Source: Gemmatimonadota bacterium (GTDB taxonomy: Bacteria; Gemmatimonadota; Gemmatimonadetes; Gemmatimonadales; Gemmatimonadaceae). Taken from it: a stretch of 54,881 nt of DNA. Location: NCBI GenBank assembly GCA_031127095.1, contig JARIEX010000004.1:1-54881 (forward strand), read 5' to 3'. The translations under genes were made by a program, and so were the position numbers. Of the stretch, positions 14,767 to 26,157 are shown one piece after another. The notes below the pieces were generated by a model. It was not told the origin of the DNA. It saw only the letters and a list, made by a program, of their open reading frames with translations, and did no database searches. The stretch's first letter is position 1. Each line of letters begins with the position of its first letter.

Positions 14767-15360
14767 ATGATGAGACGGCTGCTGGGCTATTTCCTGCGTG
14801 GACTCGTGTTGCTGGCCCCCCTCGCGGTGACCGTGTGGGTGTGCTGGCTCATCTTCACCAATGTCGATGGGTGGCTGGGGCTTCCTGTCCCCGGGGCAGG
14901 CTTTGTGGCCACCCTCGTGCTGATCACGACCGTCGGGTTCCTCGGGTCGAATCTGCTCACGCGCTCGGCGGTGAACCTGCTGGAAGAGCTGATGAGTCGG
15001 CTCCCCTTCGTGCGCCTGCTGTACGGCTCTACGAAGGACCTGCTGAATGCGTTCGTGGGTGAAAAGCGGCGGTTCGACAAACCCGTGTCGGTGGCGTTGC
15101 AACCCGACGGCAGTGTGCGGCTGGTGGGATTCGTGACGCAGGAGTCGCTGCCCCAGCTGGGGATGGCAGGGTACGTCGCCGTATACTGCCCGCACTCCTA
15201 CGCTTTCTCGGGCCAGCTGCACGTGGTGCTCGCGACGCGCGTTCAGGCGCTGGACGTGGCGAGTGCCGATGCGATGGCCTTTGTGGTGTCCGGCGGTGTG
15301 TCCGCCCCAGCCGCTGCCCTCCCCTCCACTGGCGACCGCGCCACCGTCGAGACTCCCTGA
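14767..15360 (+). CDS. DUF502 family membrane protein
   Basis: A protein of about 197 residues with two N-terminal membrane helices ([19 protein letters not shown] and [20 protein letters not shown]) followed by a small soluble domain with [19 protein letters not shown], the signature block of DUF502. The family has no settled biochemical role; it is widespread in Proteobacteria, cyanobacteria and plants (COV/LCV). Start options are GTG 14758, ATG 14767 and ATG 14770; the AGGAG at 14761-14765 favours one of the ATGs, most likely 14770 by spacing. The stop shares a base with the amidohydrolase start (TGATG). Confidence 0.88.
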
Positions 15361-16661
15361 TGCCACGACTGATGTCCTTCGCGTGGGCCCCAGTGGCCCT
15401 CGCCGTGCTGCTGGGTACGCAAACCCTCTCGGCGCAGGCCGCGCCGGCGACGCCGAAGCCGATCCTGCTGGTACCGGATGCCGTGTTCGATGGCGTGACC
15501 GACGCCCCGCACCGCGGGTGGGCTGTGCTGGTGCGCAACGGTCGCATCGCCGCGGCCGGACCGGCCGCCAGCCTGTCGGTGCCTGCCGACGCCGAGCGCA
15601 TCGCGCTGCCGGGCACGACGCTGCTGCCGGGGATGAGCGATCTGCACAGCCACGTGTTGTTGCATCCGTACGATGAAACACCGTGGAACGATCAGGTGCT
15701 GCGCGAGTCGCTCGCGCTGCGCACGGCGCGCGCCGTGAATCATCTGAAGGCGACGCTGGATGCCGGCTTCACGGTGCTGCGGGATCTCGGGACCGAGGGG
15801 GCCGACTACGCCGACGTGGGACTCAAGGAAGCGGTGGATCAGGGGATCATCCCCGGGCCGCGACTGTTCGTGACGACCAAGGCGATCGTGGCCACGGGGT
15901 CGTACGGCCCGAAGGGGTTCGGCGCGGAAATCGGGGTACCGCAGGGGGCGGAACAGGCCGACGGCATCGACGGCGTGACGCGCGTGGTGCGCGATCAGAT
16001 CGGGCACGGTGCCGACTGGATCAAGATTTACGCCGACTACCGTTGGGGGCCGCGCGGCGAAGCCCGTCCGACTTTCACCAACGAGGAATGGGCGGCCATT
16101 GTGCGCACCTCCACCTCGAGCGGGCGCCCGGTCGTGGCGCATGCCAGCACCGTGGAAGGGATGACGCGCGCGATTCTGGCCGGCGTGGAGGACATCGAGC
16201 ACGGGGACATGGCCAACGCCGAGGTCTTTGCGCTGATGAAGGAGCGAAACGTGGCGTTCTGCCCCACCCTGTCGGCCACGGAGAGCACCACCCGCTATCG
16301 CGGCTGGAAGAAGGGAATCGATCCTGATCCGGCGGGAATCGTGCAGAAGAAGGCGATGTTCGCCGCGGCGCTGGCCTCGGGCGTGACGATCTGCAACGGC
16401 AGCGACGTGGGCGTGTTCGCCCACGGCACGAACGCCCTCGAGTTGGAGCTCATGGTCGAGTACGGCATGTCGCCGGTGGCGGCGCTGCGCGCGGCGACCA
16501 GCGTGAACGCACGCATCATGCACCGCGAGGCCGAGTTCGGCCGCGTGGCGCCGGGGCTGCTGGCCGACCTGGTGGCGGTGGCCGGCAACCCCACCGCCGA
16601 CATCCGGGCGCTCCGCGCGGTCCGCTTCGTGATGAAGGGCGGCGTCATCGTCCGCCGGTAG
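15360..16661 (+). CDS. Exported metal-dependent amidohydrolase
   Basis: A 433-residue member of the amidohydrolase superfamily (imidazolonepropionase-like/prolidase-like branch) with a Sec signal peptide ending near TLSAQAA. Metal-site residues can be followed: HSH in [10 protein letters not shown], lysine in DWIKIYADY, His in VAHAST, His in IEHGDM, and Asp in CNGSDVGVF. These are the expected HxH, K, H, H, D ligands of a binuclear site. Exported relatives act as Xaa-Pro dipeptidases or carboxypeptidase-like hydrolases, but the substrate is not readable from sequence. It is coupled to the DUF502 gene by a one-base overlap. A weak hairpin (16689-16705) without T-tract follows the stop. Confidence 0.9.
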
Positions 16662-16823: not shown

Positions 16824-18458
16824 TTGTCCTCGTCCAACTCCGGCTCGAACGAAGCCTGGGGTAGTCGCATCGGTCTCATTCTCGCCATGGCGGGTAATGC
16901 GGTCGGTCTCGGCAACTTCCTGCGCTTCCCGCGTCAGGCCGCCGCCAATGGTGGCGGCTCGTACATGATCGCGTACTTCATCGCGCTGCTGCTGCTTGGC
17001 ATTCCGCTCATGTGGATCGAGTGGGGCGTCGGCCGCAATGGCGGCCGCTACCGCAAGGGGCACCTGCCCGGCATGTTCGCGGCGCTGTGGAAGCACCCGG
17101 CCGCGAAGTACATCGGCGTCGTGGGCTTGGTCGTGCCGATGGGCGTGATGATCTATTACACGTACATCGAAAGCTGGACGCTGGCCTTCGCCATCTTCTC
17201 GGCCACCAAGGACTACTGGGGCCAGACCACCCAGGAAGGGATGCTGGGCTACCTGCGGTCGTTCCAGGGGCTCACCCCCGAGGGCGGCACGCAGTACCAC
17301 GCCTCCTACACCCCGTACGCGTTCTTCACCGTCACCCTGCTGATCAACATCTGGGTGCTGTCGAAGGGTGTCTCGGGCGGTATCGAGAAGCTCGCCAAGA
17401 TCGGCATGCCGGTGCTGTTCCTGTTCGCCATCGTGCTGGCGGGCGTCGTGCTCACGCTGCCGGCGCAGCCGGGCGTCGGGACCACGCCGGCGCAGGGGTT
17501 GGAGTTCATCTACGCCCCCGACCTGTCGCGACTGGGTGAGCCGGGTATCTGGCTGGCGGCCGCTGGGCAGATCTTCTTTACGCTGTCGGTGGGCATGGGC
17601 TCGCTGCAGGCATACGCGTCGTACCTGTCCACCAAGGACGATATCGCGCTGAACGGCATCGCGACCGCGGCCACGAACGAGACGGCGGAAGTCGTGCTTG
17701 GCGGGTCGATTGCCATTCCGGCGGCCGTGACGTTCTTCGGCGTGGCGGGTGCCATGCAGATCGCGCAGGGCGGCGCGTTCGACCTGGGCTTCGCCACCAT
17801 GCCGGTGGTGTTCCAGCAGATCGACAAGACGCTGCCGATCGGCAACCTGCTCGGCGTGATGTGGTTCGGCCTGTTGTTCTTCGCCGGCATCACGTCGTCA
17901 GTGGCCATGCTCACGCCGGTCACGGCCTTCTTCCGCGAAGAGTTCGGCTTCAAGCGGGAGTCCGTAGCCAAGGTACTGGGCGGTATCTGCTTCGTCATCG
18001 GCCTGATGCATGTGCACTGGCTCGGGCACGGCTTCCTGGACGAGTGGGACTACTGGGTCGGGACGTTCGGGCTGGTGCTGGTGGCCATCACCGAAGTGAT
18101 CATCTTCGTCTGGATCTTCAAGCCCGAGAACGCGTGGAAGTCCATCCACATGGGTGCGGACATCAACATCCCGAAGATCTTCAAGTTCATCATGACGTAC
18201 GTGACGCCGATCTACTTGCTGATCATCCTCACGTGGTGGGGCAAGGATGAGGCGCTGCCGATTCTGCTCAACCAGCGTTCGGCTGGTAGTGCGACGCCGG
18301 TGTCGGACGCCGACATGCCGTTCATCACGATCTCGCGTGGTATTCTGGTGCTCTTCGTGGTCGTGTTCCTGTTCTTCATCCGCACGGCGTGGAAGCGGAA
18401 CGGGTACGATGACCGCAAGGGCTTCGTCGAGATCGACACTAACCGCGCGGGGGTCTGA
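16824..18458 (+). CDS. Sodium-dependent transporter, NSS (SNF) family
   Basis: A 544-residue secondary transporter of the neurotransmitter:sodium symporter family, which imports amino acids with sodium. The N-terminal AGNAVGLGNFLRFP is the helix-1 motif forming the sodium and substrate sites, and NGGGSYMIAYFIALLLLGIP is the helix-2 region; about twelve membrane segments are visible, as in MetP- and LeuT-like proteins. The TTG start at 16824 is supported by GGAG five bases before it. The downstream 55-residue gene overlaps by one base and resembles the small MetS subunit, so the pair is probably a MetP/MetS-type importer of methionine, alanine or similar amino acids; the exact substrate is inferred from that pairing only. 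Confidence 0.93.
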   Translation: MSSSNSGSNEAWGSRIGLILAMAGNAVGLGNFLRFPRQAAANGGGSYMIAYFIALLLLGIPLMWIEWGVGRNGGRYRKGHLPGMFAALWKHPAAKYIGVVGLVVPMGVMIYYTYIESWTLAFAIFSATKDYWGQTTQEGMLGYLRSFQGLTPEGGTQYHASYTPYAFFTVTLLINIWVLSKGVSGGIEKLAKIGMPVLFLFAIVLAGVVLTLPAQPGVGTTPAQGLEFIYAPDLSRLGEPGIWLAAAGQIFFTLSVGMGSLQAYASYLSTKDDIALNGIATAATNETAEVVLGGSIAIPAAVTFFGVAGAMQIAQGGAFDLGFATMPVVFQQIDKTLPIGNLLGVMWFGLLFFAGITSSVAMLTPVTAFFREEFGFKRESVAKVLGGICFVIGLMHVHWLGHGFLDEWDYWVGTFGLVLVAITEVIIFVWIFKPENAWKSIHMGADINIPKIFKFIMTYVTPIYLLIILTWWGKDEALPILLNQRSAGSATPVSDADMPFITISRGILVLFVVVFLFFIRTAWKRNGYDDRKGFVEIDTNRAGV

Positions 18459-18625
18459 TGTCTGGTGGAGCCATTGCCTTCATGGCGATCAGCTGGACGT
18501 TCGTGCTGGGGCTGACCGCCTGGTCGTTCGCGCAGCTGCTGGCCGATAAGAAGCACTTCGATCCGGATGGCATCGGTCCGGCGTCACCGCCCGAGCCGCC
18601 GCACGCGAAGAACAAGAAGAAATAA
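18458..18625 (+). CDS. MetS-like small subunit of NSS transporter
   Basis: A 55-residue protein: a single membrane helix (residues about 4-28, GGAIAFMAISWTFVLGLTAW) followed by a charged, Pro- and Lys-rich tail ending KNKKK. The ATG shares one base with the stop of the transporter gene (TGATG). In Corynebacterium the methionine/alanine importer MetP needs a 60-residue single-helix partner, MetS, and similar short genes follow NSS genes in many bacteria; this one fits by position, size and topology. The sequence match itself is weak, as expected for so short a protein, so identity rests mainly on context. Confidence 0.75.
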   Translation: MSGGAIAFMAISWTFVLGLTAWSFAQLLADKKHFDPDGIGPASPPEPPHAKNKKK

Positions 18626-18662
18626 GTCGTTGCCGTGTGGCACGAGTCCGGGTCGGAGCGCG

Positions 18663-21053
18663 TTGTTCAGCGTGCTCCGACCCGATTCTTTTCCCGACCA
18701 GCTGGCCGAGCGGATTACCGACCACTCCGGCCCCAACGCGCCTGCCGAGGCCGCCGCAGGCGCGTTCGTGATCTACTGGATGCGCACCGCGGTGCGCGCA
18801 CACGAAAACCCGGCGCTGGATGTCGCGCTGCTCGCAGCCGCGCAGCTCGGCGTGCCGGTGTTCGTGTATCACGCGCTGTCCGAGCGGTACCCGTTCGCGT
18901 CAGACCGGCACCACACCTTCATTCTGGAAGGGGCGCGGGACGTGGAAGCCGAGTGCCACGCGCGCGGGATCGGGTACGCATTCCACCTCGAGCGCCCCGG
19001 GCATCGCGGGCCGGCCCTGCGCACGTTGGCTGCACGGGCGGCGCTCGTGGTCACCGAGACGTTCCCCGTGGCCCCGTTGGACTGGCTGACCGACTCACTG
19101 GCGGACGCCGTATCGTGCCCGGTGTGGAGTGTGGATACCGCCTGCGTGGTGCCGATGCCGTTGGTGGGGAAGGCACACACCCGGGCGTTCGCCTTCCGCG
19201 ACGACACCGCACGGCTGCGGTCGGCGCGTGTGAGTGCGCCGTGGCGTGATGTGCCGCCGCAGTCGCCCCCGTTCGTGCCGGATGCGTTGCCGTTCGTGCC
19301 GGTCCGTCTGGCCGACGCAGACCTCGCGGCGCTGGTGGCGGCGTGCGAGATCGACCACGGGGTGGCCGCCGTGCCGCACACCCCCGGCGGCACGATGGCG
19401 GGGTACGCCCGGTGGAGGGCGTTCGTGGAGTCGGGGCGGCTGGACCGCTACGCCGCCAAGCGGAACGATGCCACGATCGACGGCGTGAGCCGGATGTCCG
19501 CGTATTTCCACTACGGCATGGTTTCACCCTTCCGCGTGGTGCGCGAGTGCGTGGCGCGCGGTGGGGCGGGCGCCGAGAAGTATCTCGACGAATTGCTCGT
19601 GTGGCGTGAACTCGCCTACGCCTTCTGCTACTGGCACGATGCGCCGGACACGCTGGACGCGATCCCGGGGTGGGCGCGCGAGACGCTTGCGCAGCACGAA
19701 CAGGACCGGCGCACGGTGCATTCGTGGGAGACGCTGGCGCGCGGCCGCACCGGCGATGCGCTGTGGGACGAGACGCAGGCATCACTGCGCATCCACGGCG
19801 AGCTGCACAACAACGTGCGCATGACGTGGGGCAAAGCCATTCCGACGTGGTCGGCGGGGGCGGCCGAGGCGCTGGAGCGACTGATCGACCTGAATCACCG
19901 GTACGCCCTCGACGGACGCGATCCCGCCTCGTTCGGGGGGCTGTTGTGGTGCCTCGGGCAGTTCGACCGTCCGTTCACGCCGCCGGTGGCAGTGCTGGGG
20001 ACCGTCCGTCCACGCACCACCGAATCACACGTTGAACGCATGAACCTGCCGGCGTACCGGGCGCACGTGCGGCGCCCCGTGGGTGCCACGCCGCGCGTGC
20101 TGGTGATCGGTGCTGGCATAGCGGGTCTCGCGTGCGCGCGGACGCTGCTCGACCACGGCCTCAGCGTAACCGTGCTGGACAAGAGCCGGGGCGTGGGCGG
20201 CCGGCTGAGCTCACGCCGCGAGGGGGTGTGGCAGTTCGATCACGGGGCGCCCGCGTTCCGTCTGGACGACCGCCGAACAGCGCCGTTCGCGGCGTCCTGG
20301 CAGGCCGACGGCGTGCTGCACGCGCAGGCCGACGGCGCCTTCATTGGCGCGCGCGGCATGAACGCGCTGCCGAAGCACCTCGCGACCGATCTCACGGTGC
20401 GCACGGGTGTTCAGGTGGCCTCACTGACGCGCGACGGCACGCGCTGGACGGTCACGGACGCCACCGGGGGCACCCACACGGCCGACATCGTGGTGCTGGC
20501 GACGCCGGCGCCGCAGGCCGTCACCCTGCTCGGCACATCGCCCGATATGGCGGACGTGGCCGCGACGTTGGCTGGCGTACGCATGCTCCCCTGCTGGAGC
20601 ACGATGGTGGTGTTCGATGCGCCGCCGTCGGCCGCCGTGGCCGCCTCCCTGCGCGACGGGCTGGCCGAAAGTGACGACCCCATCGTGCATCGCGCGTGGC
20701 GGCAGTCGGTACGACCGGGCCGCCTGCGCGACGAGGCGTGGGTGGTGCACAGCGAGGGCGCATGGAGCGCCGAGCACGTGGAGGCCACGCCGGCCGAGAT
20801 CGCGGCACGGGTGTCGGAGGCGCTCCGTGCGCGTCTGGCGATTGATGGGGCGGTGGTGCACGCGGTGGCACACCGTTGGCGCTACGCGCGCGTGGCGTCG
20901 GGGCTGAACGACGCCTGCCTGTTCGATGCGGCGCGTGGTGTGGGCGCCTGCGGCGACTGGGGGGAGGCTGGCGCGACGCGCCGGGTACGGACCTCGGTGG
21001 AACGCGCGTGGCTGAGCGGTATTGCGCTCGCGGGGCGCGTGCTCGGGCGGTAG
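18663..21053 (+). CDS. Class II CPD photolyase fused to renalase-like FAD oxidoreductase
   Basis: One continuous frame of about 796 residues with two complete domains. Residues 1 to about 470 match class II deoxyribodipyrimidine photolyases: FVIYWMRTAVRAHENPALD at the start, LVWRELAYAFCYWHD, GELHNNVRMTWGKAIPTW and LNHRYALDGRDPASF, the FAD- and DNA-binding blocks of the class. From about residue 476 a Rossmann motif VLVIGAGIAGLACA and DKSRGVGGRLSSRR begin an FAD-dependent oxidoreductase of the renalase/COG3380 type that runs to the end, with a final CGDWGEAG block typical of the FAD-binding C-terminus. The photolyase should repair UV-induced pyrimidine dimers using light; the role of the second domain is unknown. 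Start is TTG 18663 (GGAG at 18655-18658) or GTG 18672. Confidence 0.9.
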   Translation: MFSVLRPDSFPDQLAERITDHSGPNAPAEAAAGAFVIYWMRTAVRAHENPALDVALLAAAQLGVPVFVYHALSERYPFASDRHHTFILEGARDVEAECHARGIGYAFHLERPGHRGPALRTLAARAALVVTETFPVAPLDWLTDSLADAVSCPVWSVDTACVVPMPLVGKAHTRAFAFRDDTARLRSARVSAPWRDVPPQSPPFVPDALPFVPVRLADADLAALVAACEIDHGVAAVPHTPGGTMAGYARWRAFVESGRLDRYAAKRNDATIDGVSRMSAYFHYGMVSPFRVVRECVARGGAGAEKYLDELLVWRELAYAFCYWHDAPDTLDAIPGWARETLAQHEQDRRTVHSWETLARGRTGDALWDETQASLRIHGELHNNVRMTWGKAIPTWSAGAAEALERLIDLNHRYALDGRDPASFGGLLWCLGQFDRPFTPPVAVLGTVRPRTTESHVERMNLPAYRAHVRRPVGATPRVLVIGAGIAGLACARTLLDHGLSVTVLDKSRGVGGRLSSRREGVWQFDHGAPAFRLDDRRTAPFAASWQADGVLHAQADGAFIGARGMNALPKHLATDLTVRTGVQVASLTRDGTRWTVTDATGGTHTADIVVLATPAPQAVTLLGTSPDMADVAATLAGVRMLPCWSTMVVFDAPPSAAVAASLRDGLAESDDPIVHRAWRQSVRPGRLRDEAWVVHSEGAWSAEHVEATPAEIAARVSEALRARLAIDGAVVHAVAHRWRYARVASGLNDACLFDAARGVGACGDWGEAGATRRVRTSVERAWLSGIALAGRVLGR

Positions 21054-23712: not shown

Positions 23713-26157
23713 CTACTCGCCGTACGGAATCCAGATGTTCTTGACCTGCGTGGCGCGGCGGAGAAATTCCCGTCCCTCACCCACGCGCGGATCGAGCCAC
23801 TCGCGCCCGTCCCATTCCGTCCATGTGCGTTTCAGATTGGACGCCGATGCCCGTTCCACGGCGGCGGCGCCGTGCTGTGAACCAACGTACCACACTGCAT
23901 CCACGTCGTCATGGTCAGCGAGCACACTGGCGAGCAGATCGCGCGCTCCGGTCACGATGTTGACGGTGCCGGCCGGAACATCGGACGTTTCCAGCACACT
24001 GTACAAGTCGGTGGCGGAAAGTGGAAACCGTTCCGACGGCACCGCAACCACGCGATTGCCGGTGGCCAGCAGCGGCGCGACCAGGGACACGAAGCCCAGC
24101 AGTGGATACGGATCGGGACAGGCCACCCCGACGACACCGATGGGCTCGTGCATCGCCATCGCCACGCCGCGCAGGGGGACGTCGTGCACGGCGCCGTCGT
24201 GCTTGTCGGCCCAGGCCCCATACGTGAACAGCCGGGAGATGGCCGCCTCGACTTCACGCACGCTGTCCTCGCCCGTCGCGCCCGTCATGGCACGCAGACG
24301 GTCCGCGAATTCCTGCTGCCGCGCCGACAGATTTTCCGCGATGTAGAAGAGAATTTGTGACCGCTGATGCCCGGAGAGCTTGGCCCACGCCCCGCCGGCG
24401 TGGGCGGCCTCGACGGCGTTGCGGATATCCTTGCGACTCCCCTCGCCGACCTCCCCCACCGCGTGGCCGTCGGGACCGACCACGACCCGCGCGTACCCGG
24501 AATCCGGACGTGCCTGCTTGCCGCCGATGAAGAGCTTCGCGGTGCGATCGAGCGGCGGCATCGATGCCGTGGTCTGGTGCGCGGACGTGACGTCACGGTG
24601 CGCGACGTCGTGGCCCGCCGCGCGCGCGGGGGGCGCGAGCACGGGCGCCGGCGCCGCCTCGTGCGCCCGCACGGGCGTGAGGTATTCCCAAAGCCCTTCG
24701 CGTCCACCTTCACGCCCGAACCCCGATTCGCGGTACCCACCGAACCCGGCGGCCGCGTCGAAGAGATTCGTGCTGTTGATCCACACCACGCCGCACTTGA
24801 GTTTGGGGGCGATGTCGAGGGCCAGATTGATGTTCTCGCTCCACACGCTCGCCGCCAGCCCGAAGGGGGTGTTGTTGGCGAGTGCCACCGCTTCGTCGGG
24901 GGTGCGGAAGGTCATGCTCACCAGCACCGGTCCGAAAATCTCGACCTGCGCGATCGTGGCCGACGGGGCCACGTTGGTGAAGAGCGTGGGCGGATAGAAC
25001 GACCCTTCGGCCGGTGTGGCCCACGAGGGCTGCCAGCAGGTGGCGCCCTCCTCGACTCCCTGCGCACAGAGCTGCCGGATGCGCTCGAGTTGCACCGGGG
25101 CCACGATGGCGCCCATGTCAACCGTCTTATCGAGCGGCGCGCCGATGCGCAGCCGCTCCATGCGTTCGCGCAGCTTCTCCAACAGCCGGTCGGCGATGCC
25201 CTCCTGCACGAGCAGGCGCGACCCCGCGCAGCACACCTGGCCCTGATTGAACCAGATCGCATCGACCACGCCTTCCACCACGCTATCGAGATCCGCGTCC
25301 TCGAACACCACAAACGGACTCTTCCCGCCCAGCTCGAGCGAGAGTCCCTTGCCGGTGCCGGCCGTGGCCACGCGGATACTCCGTCCCACCTCGGTGCTAC
25401 CGGTGAACGCGATCTTGTCGACATCCGGATGGGCGACGATCGCGGCACCGGTGTGGCCGTCGCCGGTAACCAGATTGAACACGCCGGGGGGTAAGCCGAT
25501 TTCGTGCACCAGTTCCGCAAAACGCAGCGCCGTGAGCGGCGTGAATTCGGCGGGCTTGAGCACCACGGTGTTCCCGGCCGCGAGCGCGGGCGCGACCTTC
25601 CACGCCAGCATGAGCAGCGGGAAATTCCACGGGATCACCTGCCCCACCACGCCGTACGCGTGCTGTCCCGGAAACTCCGCCGAGAGGAGCTGCGCCCAGC
25701 CGGCGTGATACGAGAAGTGGCGTGCGACGAGCGGAATGTCGATGTCACGCGTTTCGCGGATCGGCTTGCCGTTGTCCATCGACTCCAGCACCGCAAAGTG
25801 GCGCGCGTGCTTCTGGATGCCGCGGGCAATGGCGTACAGCCAGCGGGCGCGGGCGTGATCGTCGAGCGCCTGCCACCCCGGGAGCGCGGCGCGGGCCGCA
25901 GCCACCGCGGCGTCCACGTCGGCGGCGCTCCCCTGGGCCACATGCGCGAGGCGCCGTCCGGTGGACGGGTCCTGCACCTCGAACTGCGCGTCGGGGGTGG
26001 GCGCGGTCCACGCCCCGCCGATGTAGTGCCCGAACGCATGCGCGCGCCCGGCCAGCCACGCGCGCACGGGCGCGTCGCCCTCCGGCGCAGGGCCGTAGCT
26101 CATCGCGTCGAAGATGTCGCGGACGGTGGTCGGCGTCGATTTGGTCGTCGGTTCCAT
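23713..26157 (-). CDS. Two-domain aldehyde dehydrogenase, ALDH16 type
   Basis: An 814-residue protein made of a complete aldehyde dehydrogenase domain and a second, degenerate one. In the first, N178 (IPWNF), the general base E275 (LELGGKSP) and the catalytic C309 (NQGQVCCAG) are all present. The second domain begins near residue 530 (KLFIGGKQARP) and repeats the cofactor-domain pattern (ACPDPYPLL, VNIVTGA) but stops without a catalytic cysteine. This is the layout of the ALDH16 family. Only 5 bases separate it from deoC upstream. Deoxyribose-phosphate aldolase releases acetaldehyde, so the likely role here is NAD-dependent oxidation of acetaldehyde to acetate; that is inference from the neighbour. 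Confidence 0.92.
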   Translation of the reverse strand: MEPTTKSTPTTVRDIFDAMSYGPAPEGDAPVRAWLAGRAHAFGHYIGGAWTAPTPDAQFEVQDPSTGRRLAHVAQGSAADVDAAVAAARAALPGWQALDDHARARWLYAIARGIQKHARHFAVLESMDNGKPIRETRDIDIPLVARHFSYHAGWAQLLSAEFPGQHAYGVVGQVIPWNFPLLMLAWKVAPALAAGNTVVLKPAEFTPLTALRFAELVHEIGLPPGVFNLVTGDGHTGAAIVAHPDVDKIAFTGSTEVGRSIRVATAGTGKGLSLELGGKSPFVVFEDADLDSVVEGVVDAIWFNQGQVCCAGSRLLVQEGIADRLLEKLRERMERLRIGAPLDKTVDMGAIVAPVQLERIRQLCAQGVEEGATCWQPSWATPAEGSFYPPTLFTNVAPSATIAQVEIFGPVLVSMTFRTPDEAVALANNTPFGLAASVWSENINLALDIAPKLKCGVVWINSTNLFDAAAGFGGYRESGFGREGGREGLWEYLTPVRAHEAAPAPVLAPPARAAGHDVAHRDVTSAHQTTASMPPLDRTAKLFIGGKQARPDSGYARVVVGPDGHAVGEVGEGSRKDIRNAVEAAHAGGAWAKLSGHQRSQILFYIAENLSARQQEFADRLRAMTGATGEDSVREVEAAISRLFTYGAWADKHDGAVHDVPLRGVAMAMHEPIGVVGVACPDPYPLLGFVSLVAPLLATGNRVVAVPSERFPLSATDLYSVLETSDVPAGTVNIVTGARDLLASVLADHDDVDAVWYVGSQHGAAAVERASASNLKRTWTEWDGREWLDPRVGEGREFLRRATQVKNIWIPYGE

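Follow-up and report, generated by a model that had tools for sequence, protein, structure and literature searches.

A fused gene for a class-II-type photolyase and a renalase-type flavoprotein in Gemmatimonadota, Myxococcota and Planctomycetota

How cells keep photolyases fully reduced is a long-standing question. A gene in the window, the 54,881-nucleotide stretch of a Gemmatimonadota contig (JARIEX010000004.1) analyzed here, raises the related question of why a photolyase should carry a second flavoprotein in the same chain. The gene is a single uninterrupted frame (18663-21053, plus strand) of 796 codons and a stop. A preliminary description of this DNA read it as a class II photolyase followed by a complete second flavoprotein, which is borne out by three lines of evidence: residues 31-466 match the class II model TIGR00591 over nearly its full length (278.5 bits, E 1.4e-82, against a curated cut-off of 550 that is reached in only 2 of 298 Gemmatimonadota genomes), residues 478-794 match the Pseudomonas bacterial renalase end to end (4zcc, E 3.1e-40), and homologues carry the identical junction. 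Both halves belong to known families, the second being that of the bacterial renalases, which we take to be COG3380. The joined architecture is undescribed in the openly readable papers that were searched, none of which mentions a photolyase together with renalase or with COG3380.

A single frame encoding two flavoproteins

The gene and its parts are as follows.

18655-18658, plus strand: GGAG, possible ribosome-binding sequence upstream of the fusion gene
18663..21053, plus strand: fused photolyase/renalase-type gene, start TTG at 18663 or GTG at 18672 (frame translation)
18753..20063, plus strand: class-II-type photolyase part, residues ~31-467 (TIGR00591, PF00875, Z 45.2 to M. mazei 4cdn)
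20064..20087, plus strand: linker, residues ~468-475 (gap between the two domain matches; model pLDDT >80)
20088..21050, plus strand: renalase-type (COG3380-like) FAD domain, residues ~476-796 (4zcc, E 3.1e-40; Z 39.5 to 4zcc_D)
20109..20126, plus strand: GAGIAG, residues 483-488, dinucleotide-binding glycines of the second flavin site (sequence motif)
20943..20960, plus strand: GACGDW, residues 761-766, conserved C-terminal motif of the renalase-type domain (motif alignment)

The start codon is ambiguous: where the window has TTG 18663, two of the four close homologues aligned have TTA, and GTG 18672 is conserved in all five rows of the start alignment (the window and the same four homologues). 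The pattern of G+C by codon position is the same on both sides of the junction. A model of the whole protein, built from 29 aligned sequences, reached a mean pLDDT of 91.7 and a pTM of 0.90, and a second model, of a Planctomycetaceae homologue (L039), reached 93.1 and 0.92, respectively. In the first model the class II fold is present, with residues 5-470 superposing on M. mazei 4cdn_A (Z 45.2, rmsd 2.2, 451 aligned, 29% identity) as compared with a Z of about 30-32 for class I photolyases, and residues 477-796 superpose on renalase with NADH (4zcc_D; Z 39.5, rmsd 1.7, 304 aligned). Motif and fold therefore uphold the two flavin sites proposed earlier, and by the same token the protein is predicted to bind two FADs.

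The gene lies behind a plus-strand pair at 16824-18625: a transporter of the Sodium:neurotransmitter-symporter family (PF00209) and, joined to it by a TGATG overlap, a 55-amino-acid ORF that has no Pfam match and ends 37 bases upstream of the fusion gene. In a related genome (G270, locus L021), a frame resembling the window's amidohydrolase (15360-16661) stands directly 5' of the photolyase in place of the transporter and the small ORF. The window also encodes, at 23713-26157 on the minus strand, an 814-amino-acid protein with two aldehyde dehydrogenase stretches (PF00171), a second in-frame double enzyme.

The window's genome is a draft (229 contigs, 83% complete), and a sequencing error joining two genes was what the preliminary description had named as fatal to its reading. 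It had also proposed counting the genomes with the same domain order. This count was carried out on samples drawn evenly from three phyla, namely Gemmatimonadota (298 genomes), Myxococcota (282; the phylum of the Kofleriaceae locus L045) and Planctomycetota (294; the phylum of the Pirellulaceae locus L042). The photolyase clade to which the fusion belongs was found in 58 of the 874 genomes, and the junction is kept in 55 of these 58: 22 of 23 in Gemmatimonadota, 23 of 25 in Myxococcota and 10 of 10 in Planctomycetota, counts that are slightly inflated by three centre genomes (G000, G301 and G303) picked because they bear the fusion. The 58 include five contig-edge pieces (G269, G151, G493, G522 and G508) and a frame-shifted copy (G069); G075 was counted as fused, its tail being cut by an N run with the other part matching 0.5 Mb away, and G523 as unfused, even though its stop lies ~20 bases from a contig end. 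Among the 22 fused Gemmatimonadota genomes, 18 hold the gene complete in one frame and 4 have it cut by a contig end, an N run or a frameshift. A scan of named genome contigs yielded 30 relatives, of which 13 carry both halves, 3 are contig-edge pieces and 14 are ordinary class II-type photolyases, and none of 71 matching plasmid records covers 80% of the fusion. Because independent genomes of three phyla share the identical junction, a chance or sequencing join is excluded; the idea that a sequencing or assembly error fused two separate genes is refuted and receives practically no weight from us. The photolyase-renalase fusion is real, and its recurrence in three phyla indicates an old, working design.

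Histories of the two halves

The fused clade is well supported (SH-aLRT 99) in a 68-row tree of the photolyase part, where the fused or unfused state requires four changes; we interpret these as a single gain of the fusion and three losses. The unfused members inside the clade are those of G270 (L021, L227), G334 (L223) and G523 (L106), the last being doubtful because of the contig edge. In a larger tree (134 rows, with 13 identical-row pairs collapsed), every fused row falls within one clade (support 0.956). The fusion photolyase is of class II type and at the same time, in these trees, stands outside the clade of the ordinary class II enzyme of the same genome (L001). Its nearest relative in them is a Polymorphobacter photolyase (L084), which sits on a long branch and has no C-terminal flavoprotein. 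On its plasmid this photolyase comes after DUF393 and DUF427 genes (L084:5010-7374), and DUF427/DUF393 also occur near a stand-alone COG3380 gene on a Sphingomonas plasmid (L085:3013-3869).

The renalase half has a more entangled record. A single clade of fused renalase domains was rejected (p-AU 1.4e-5, log-likelihood 181 lower; 28 versus 26 rows, i.e., 54 of the 108 domain rows). In a tree of 78 of the 108 rows, the fused or stand-alone label has to change 10 times, and well-supported branches alone demand at least 5 of these changes. One sequence initially labelled stand-alone, L131, is a contig-edge piece of a fused gene; it is present in a further renalase tree and in neither of these two analyses. 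Stand-alone renalase genes are interspersed with the fused domains in the tree, and some are sisters of fused domains from the same taxonomic family: L187 and L196 with the fused L015, L016 and L019, and L184, L185, L188 and L190 with the fused L018. The evolutionary distances of the two halves correlate across 58 fused proteins (r 0.66, a value reached in 0 of 2000 permutations; r 0.62 without the window's genus), the renalase half evolving ~1.4-1.5 times faster. We read this as one old fusion whose tail, judging from the trees, was repeatedly released as a free gene; repeated capture of a renalase tail is a possible alternative. At 40 loci around stand-alone renalase genes, including the L198 region, no photolyase remnants were found, the only photolyase sequences being separate genes in L204 and L212. 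These two loci, from the Myxococcota sample, show the unfused counterpart of the pairing, with a stand-alone renalase-type gene placed directly before a photolyase with a strong PF03441 match (L204:4659-7397 and L212:4911-7396).

Residues kept and lost in each half

For the photolyase half, residues were numbered as in M. mazei through an alignment (offset 20), and conservation was counted over the 62-63 rows of the clade. Five tryptophans of the window's protein are listed here with their M. mazei counterparts; the roles cited are those given in the two papers.

19602..19604, plus strand: W314, M. mazei Trp305, lesion stacking (PMC6126647), kept in 63 of 63 clade rows
19764..19766, plus strand: W368, M. 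mazei Trp360, member of the Trp triad (by alignment), kept in 60 of 62
19827..19829, plus strand: W389, M. mazei Trp381, first Trp of the triad (PMC5885780), kept in 62 of 62
19848..19850, plus strand: W396, M. mazei Trp388, last Trp of the triad (PMC5885780), kept in 61 of 62
19947..19949, plus strand: W429, M. mazei Trp421, lesion stacking (PMC6126647), kept in 62 of 62

Across the clade, Trp381, Met379, Trp421, Trp305, Glu301 and Arg256 are invariant (62-63 rows), and Arg429 and Arg441 are each found in 61 rows. The window retains the lesion and bubble residues R164, R256, N257, E301, W305, M379, W421, R429 and R441, the exception being W431, which is F438. The fusion thus shares with the M. 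mazei class II CPD photolyase (4cdn/2xry) the fold, the Trp triad and the lesion residues, whereas it differs in its extra C-terminal flavoprotein and in several clade-wide changes: Tyr380 is replaced by Thr, Tyr376 by Asn and Trp431 by Phe, and Tyr345, which participates in electron transfer in the M. mazei enzyme according to PMC5885780, is retained in only 10 of 62 clade rows versus 67 of 70 class II rows outside the clade (L084, which has Glu there, being excluded). Since the residues of the lesion pocket and the triad are kept, the photolyase half should still repair DNA and could in principle be photoreduced.

A comparison with the PhrSph98-type bifunctional CPD/(6-4) photolyases, as these are defined in PMC9649867, places the clade outside that proposed group. 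The Asn at the N384 position is shared (N383 in the window; 62 of 62 clade rows), a likeness that does not discriminate, as 53 of 62 other class II rows have it too. At the position of Y389, part of the proposed electron path of these enzymes, the fusion has Thr (T388 in the window; 61 of 62 clade rows), and at that of A430 it has Trp; it is the Thr in place of Tyr that sets the clade apart. Polymorphobacter is among the genera assigned to the PhrSph98-type group in the same paper, and the fused clade perhaps belongs to its "node 13".

The renalase half shares with bacterial renalase of Pseudomonas (4zcc/3kkj) full-length homology, fold and FAD-binding glycines, and differs in its place behind a photolyase and, in the window, in 12 changed columns out of 57 conserved ones and in a missing loop. 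These 57 columns are the ones in which 85% or more of 47 stand-alone rows agree (a threshold of our choosing; the rows include the contig-edge fused piece L131). The window keeps 45 of them, its genus 77% on average, and fused proteins outside the genus ~85% on average. The window still has the dinucleotide-fold glycines, the GGR, HRW and GDW motifs and the P..Q loop. In place of GAQYFTxRD it reads GAPAFRLDD, the W at 555 and the lysine of SKPGR are altered, and a loop, some 30 residues long, is absent after W546. From these motifs, the domain probably still binds FAD, and the C-terminal half of the window's genus has drifted in a way that may reflect a changed substrate or reduced activity.

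What the second flavoprotein may do

A separate class II photolyase is encoded in 21 of the 22 fused Gemmatimonadota genomes (the exception is G173), so the fusion is an extra enzyme. The window's genome additionally holds a truncated photolyase frame of 254 amino acids with an in-frame TAG (L003; C188:698-1459), possibly a decaying third copy. Across 29 loci, 20 of them covered as regions of up to 18.4 kb and 9 with flanks of up to 4 kb, there is no conserved operon partner: the ORF families common to many loci are the fusion itself and ORFs overlapping it, and the other neighbours recur only inside the genus, with the exception of one family common to 4 loci. The preliminary description had also stated that COG3380 genes often lie near photolyase genes; this holds for a minority and is not general, a stand-alone COG3380 gene being adjacent to a same-strand photolyase-family gene in 2 of 39 genomes (G505 and G510). 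Another such pair lies on an Asticcacaulis plasmid (L088), where the stand-alone homologue overlaps a FAD-binding-domain gene; in G120 a weak photolyase match is found ~2.5 kb from a stand-alone COG3380 gene, and a Rhizobium plasmid carries the stand-alone gene close to folE, an SDR gene and a sigma/ChrR pair. A possible avoidance between the fused and the stand-alone form within Gemmatimonadota was considered and left no signal (0 of 40 genomes have both, only 1.3 being expected; p 0.24). A class II photolyase is present in 15 of 18 genomes with stand-alone COG3380 versus 93 of 258 with none (p 1e-4, uncorrected for relatedness), a co-occurrence that may merely reflect lit habitats. PMC9758184 describes a phrB cluster of P. 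mendocina, next to pmlR1, that holds a FAD-dependent oxidoreductase gene and in which many genes are light-induced. Such clusters resemble the fusion in bringing a photolyase and a FAD oxidoreductase into one light-responsive region, and differ in that the genes are separate; the oxidoreductase is at most a candidate member of COG3380.

The explanation that we favour, while giving it slightly less than an even chance, is that of a tethered pair of self-standing light-stress enzymes. The product would be a two-flavin enzyme from an old, separate branch of class-II-type photolyases. Its N-terminal half would bind UV-damaged DNA and split pyrimidine dimers with light as usual, and its C-terminal half would act as a largely independent renalase-type oxidase that, by homology, returns wrong or light-damaged dihydronicotinamides (1,2- and 1,6-dihydro-NAD(P)) to NAD(P)+. 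Through the tether, cells under UV or light stress would make DNA repair and cofactor clean-up in a constant ratio, and these cells would already have a class II photolyase of the ordinary kind; in the genus of the window, the drifted C-terminal half may have an altered substrate or lower activity. Each half is also found alone (three photolyase-only members, and the nested stand-alone renalases), as two autonomous activities predict. Also in favour are the junction kept in 55 of 58 genomes, the single photolyase clade with its retained residues, the full-length match to renalase, the signature kept at ~85% in other fused lineages, the substrate range of renalase (below), the settings of the stand-alone homologues and of the P. 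mendocina gene, and the second class II photolyase in 21 of 22 genomes. Three points tell against the tethered pair. An operon alone would suffice for co-expression, whereas the long-kept fusion in three phyla and the confident models suggest a fixed contact and perhaps a real coupling; the renalase signature is eroded in the window (45 of 57 columns); and the auxiliary Tyr345 is lost in most of the clade.

A coupling of this kind is the core of the alternative of a built-in reductase, in which the C-terminal flavoprotein would oxidize a reduced nicotinamide (possibly the 1,2- or 1,6-isomers), pass the electrons to the photolyase FAD and so maintain the active FADH- state without an external reductant. 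The junction kept in 55 of 58 clade genomes, the two-domain models (pTM 0.90 and 0.92), the correlated distances of the halves (r 0.66) and the loss of the auxiliary Tyr345 and Tyr380 are all consistent with it, and the absence of Tyr345 from most of the clade could point to another electron source. However, the Trp triad is intact, three genomes keep the photolyase without the C-terminal half, and stand-alone renalase genes are nested among the fused ones. Moreover, human renalase oxidizes the 1,2- and 1,6-isomers of NAD(P)H but does not act on 1,4-NAD(P)H (PMC7660482), which makes a simple NADH-driven flavin reductase doubtful. We therefore regard the built-in reductase as a serious contender that is nonetheless doubtful, and there is evidence against the earlier proposal that the second domain may reduce the photolyase flavin. 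The other half of that proposal, the consumption of damaged nicotinamides, has fared better, its activity being suggested by homology, with the reservation that the renalase signature is partly lost in the window's lineage; cofactor clean-up beside light-driven repair fits better than a reductase fed by NADH. A further reading, which we hold to be unlikely, is a self-fuelled photolyase, whose renalase-type flavin would take electrons from light-damaged dihydronicotinamides and hand them to the repair flavin.

A different use of the second flavin would be as an antenna that harvests light for the photolyase; alternatively, the C-terminal half would be a structural clamp. In either case renalase catalysis would have been lost, at least in the window's genus. 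There is a precedent in a photolyase whose second FAD is the proposed antenna (title of PDB 2e0i). In 21 genomes of the window's genus no CofH match exceeds the cut-off. Of the two lower matches in the window's genome, one is MqnC (a menaquinone enzyme, over its own cut-off) and the other is closest to MqnE, whose cut-off it does not reach, so 8-HDF, the antenna of the M. mazei photolyase, is probably not made there. The eroded signature of the genus, set against the retained FAD-binding glycines and GDW region, is also in line with an antenna or clamp. Nevertheless, other fused lineages largely keep the renalase signature, and an antenna requires a suitable flavin-flavin distance; we judge either role distinctly improbable. 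Finally, the photolyase half could be a cryptochrome-like light sensor that gates the oxidoreductase half, repair being perhaps already covered by the ordinary class II paralogue in 21 of 22 fused Gemmatimonadota genomes. Lesion-contacting residues are nonetheless kept in nearly all clade rows, and a sensor seems to us very improbable.

If the self-fuelled reading were true, one class of photodamage would power the repair of another, and a DNA-repair flavin could be recharged in the dark. More generally, a natural photolyase with a second flavoenzyme in three phyla makes the question of photolyase reduction addressable in a single purified protein with a handful of point mutants. Little is known of the cellular setting of bacterial renalases, and the fusion would also place them in the context of light and UV damage.
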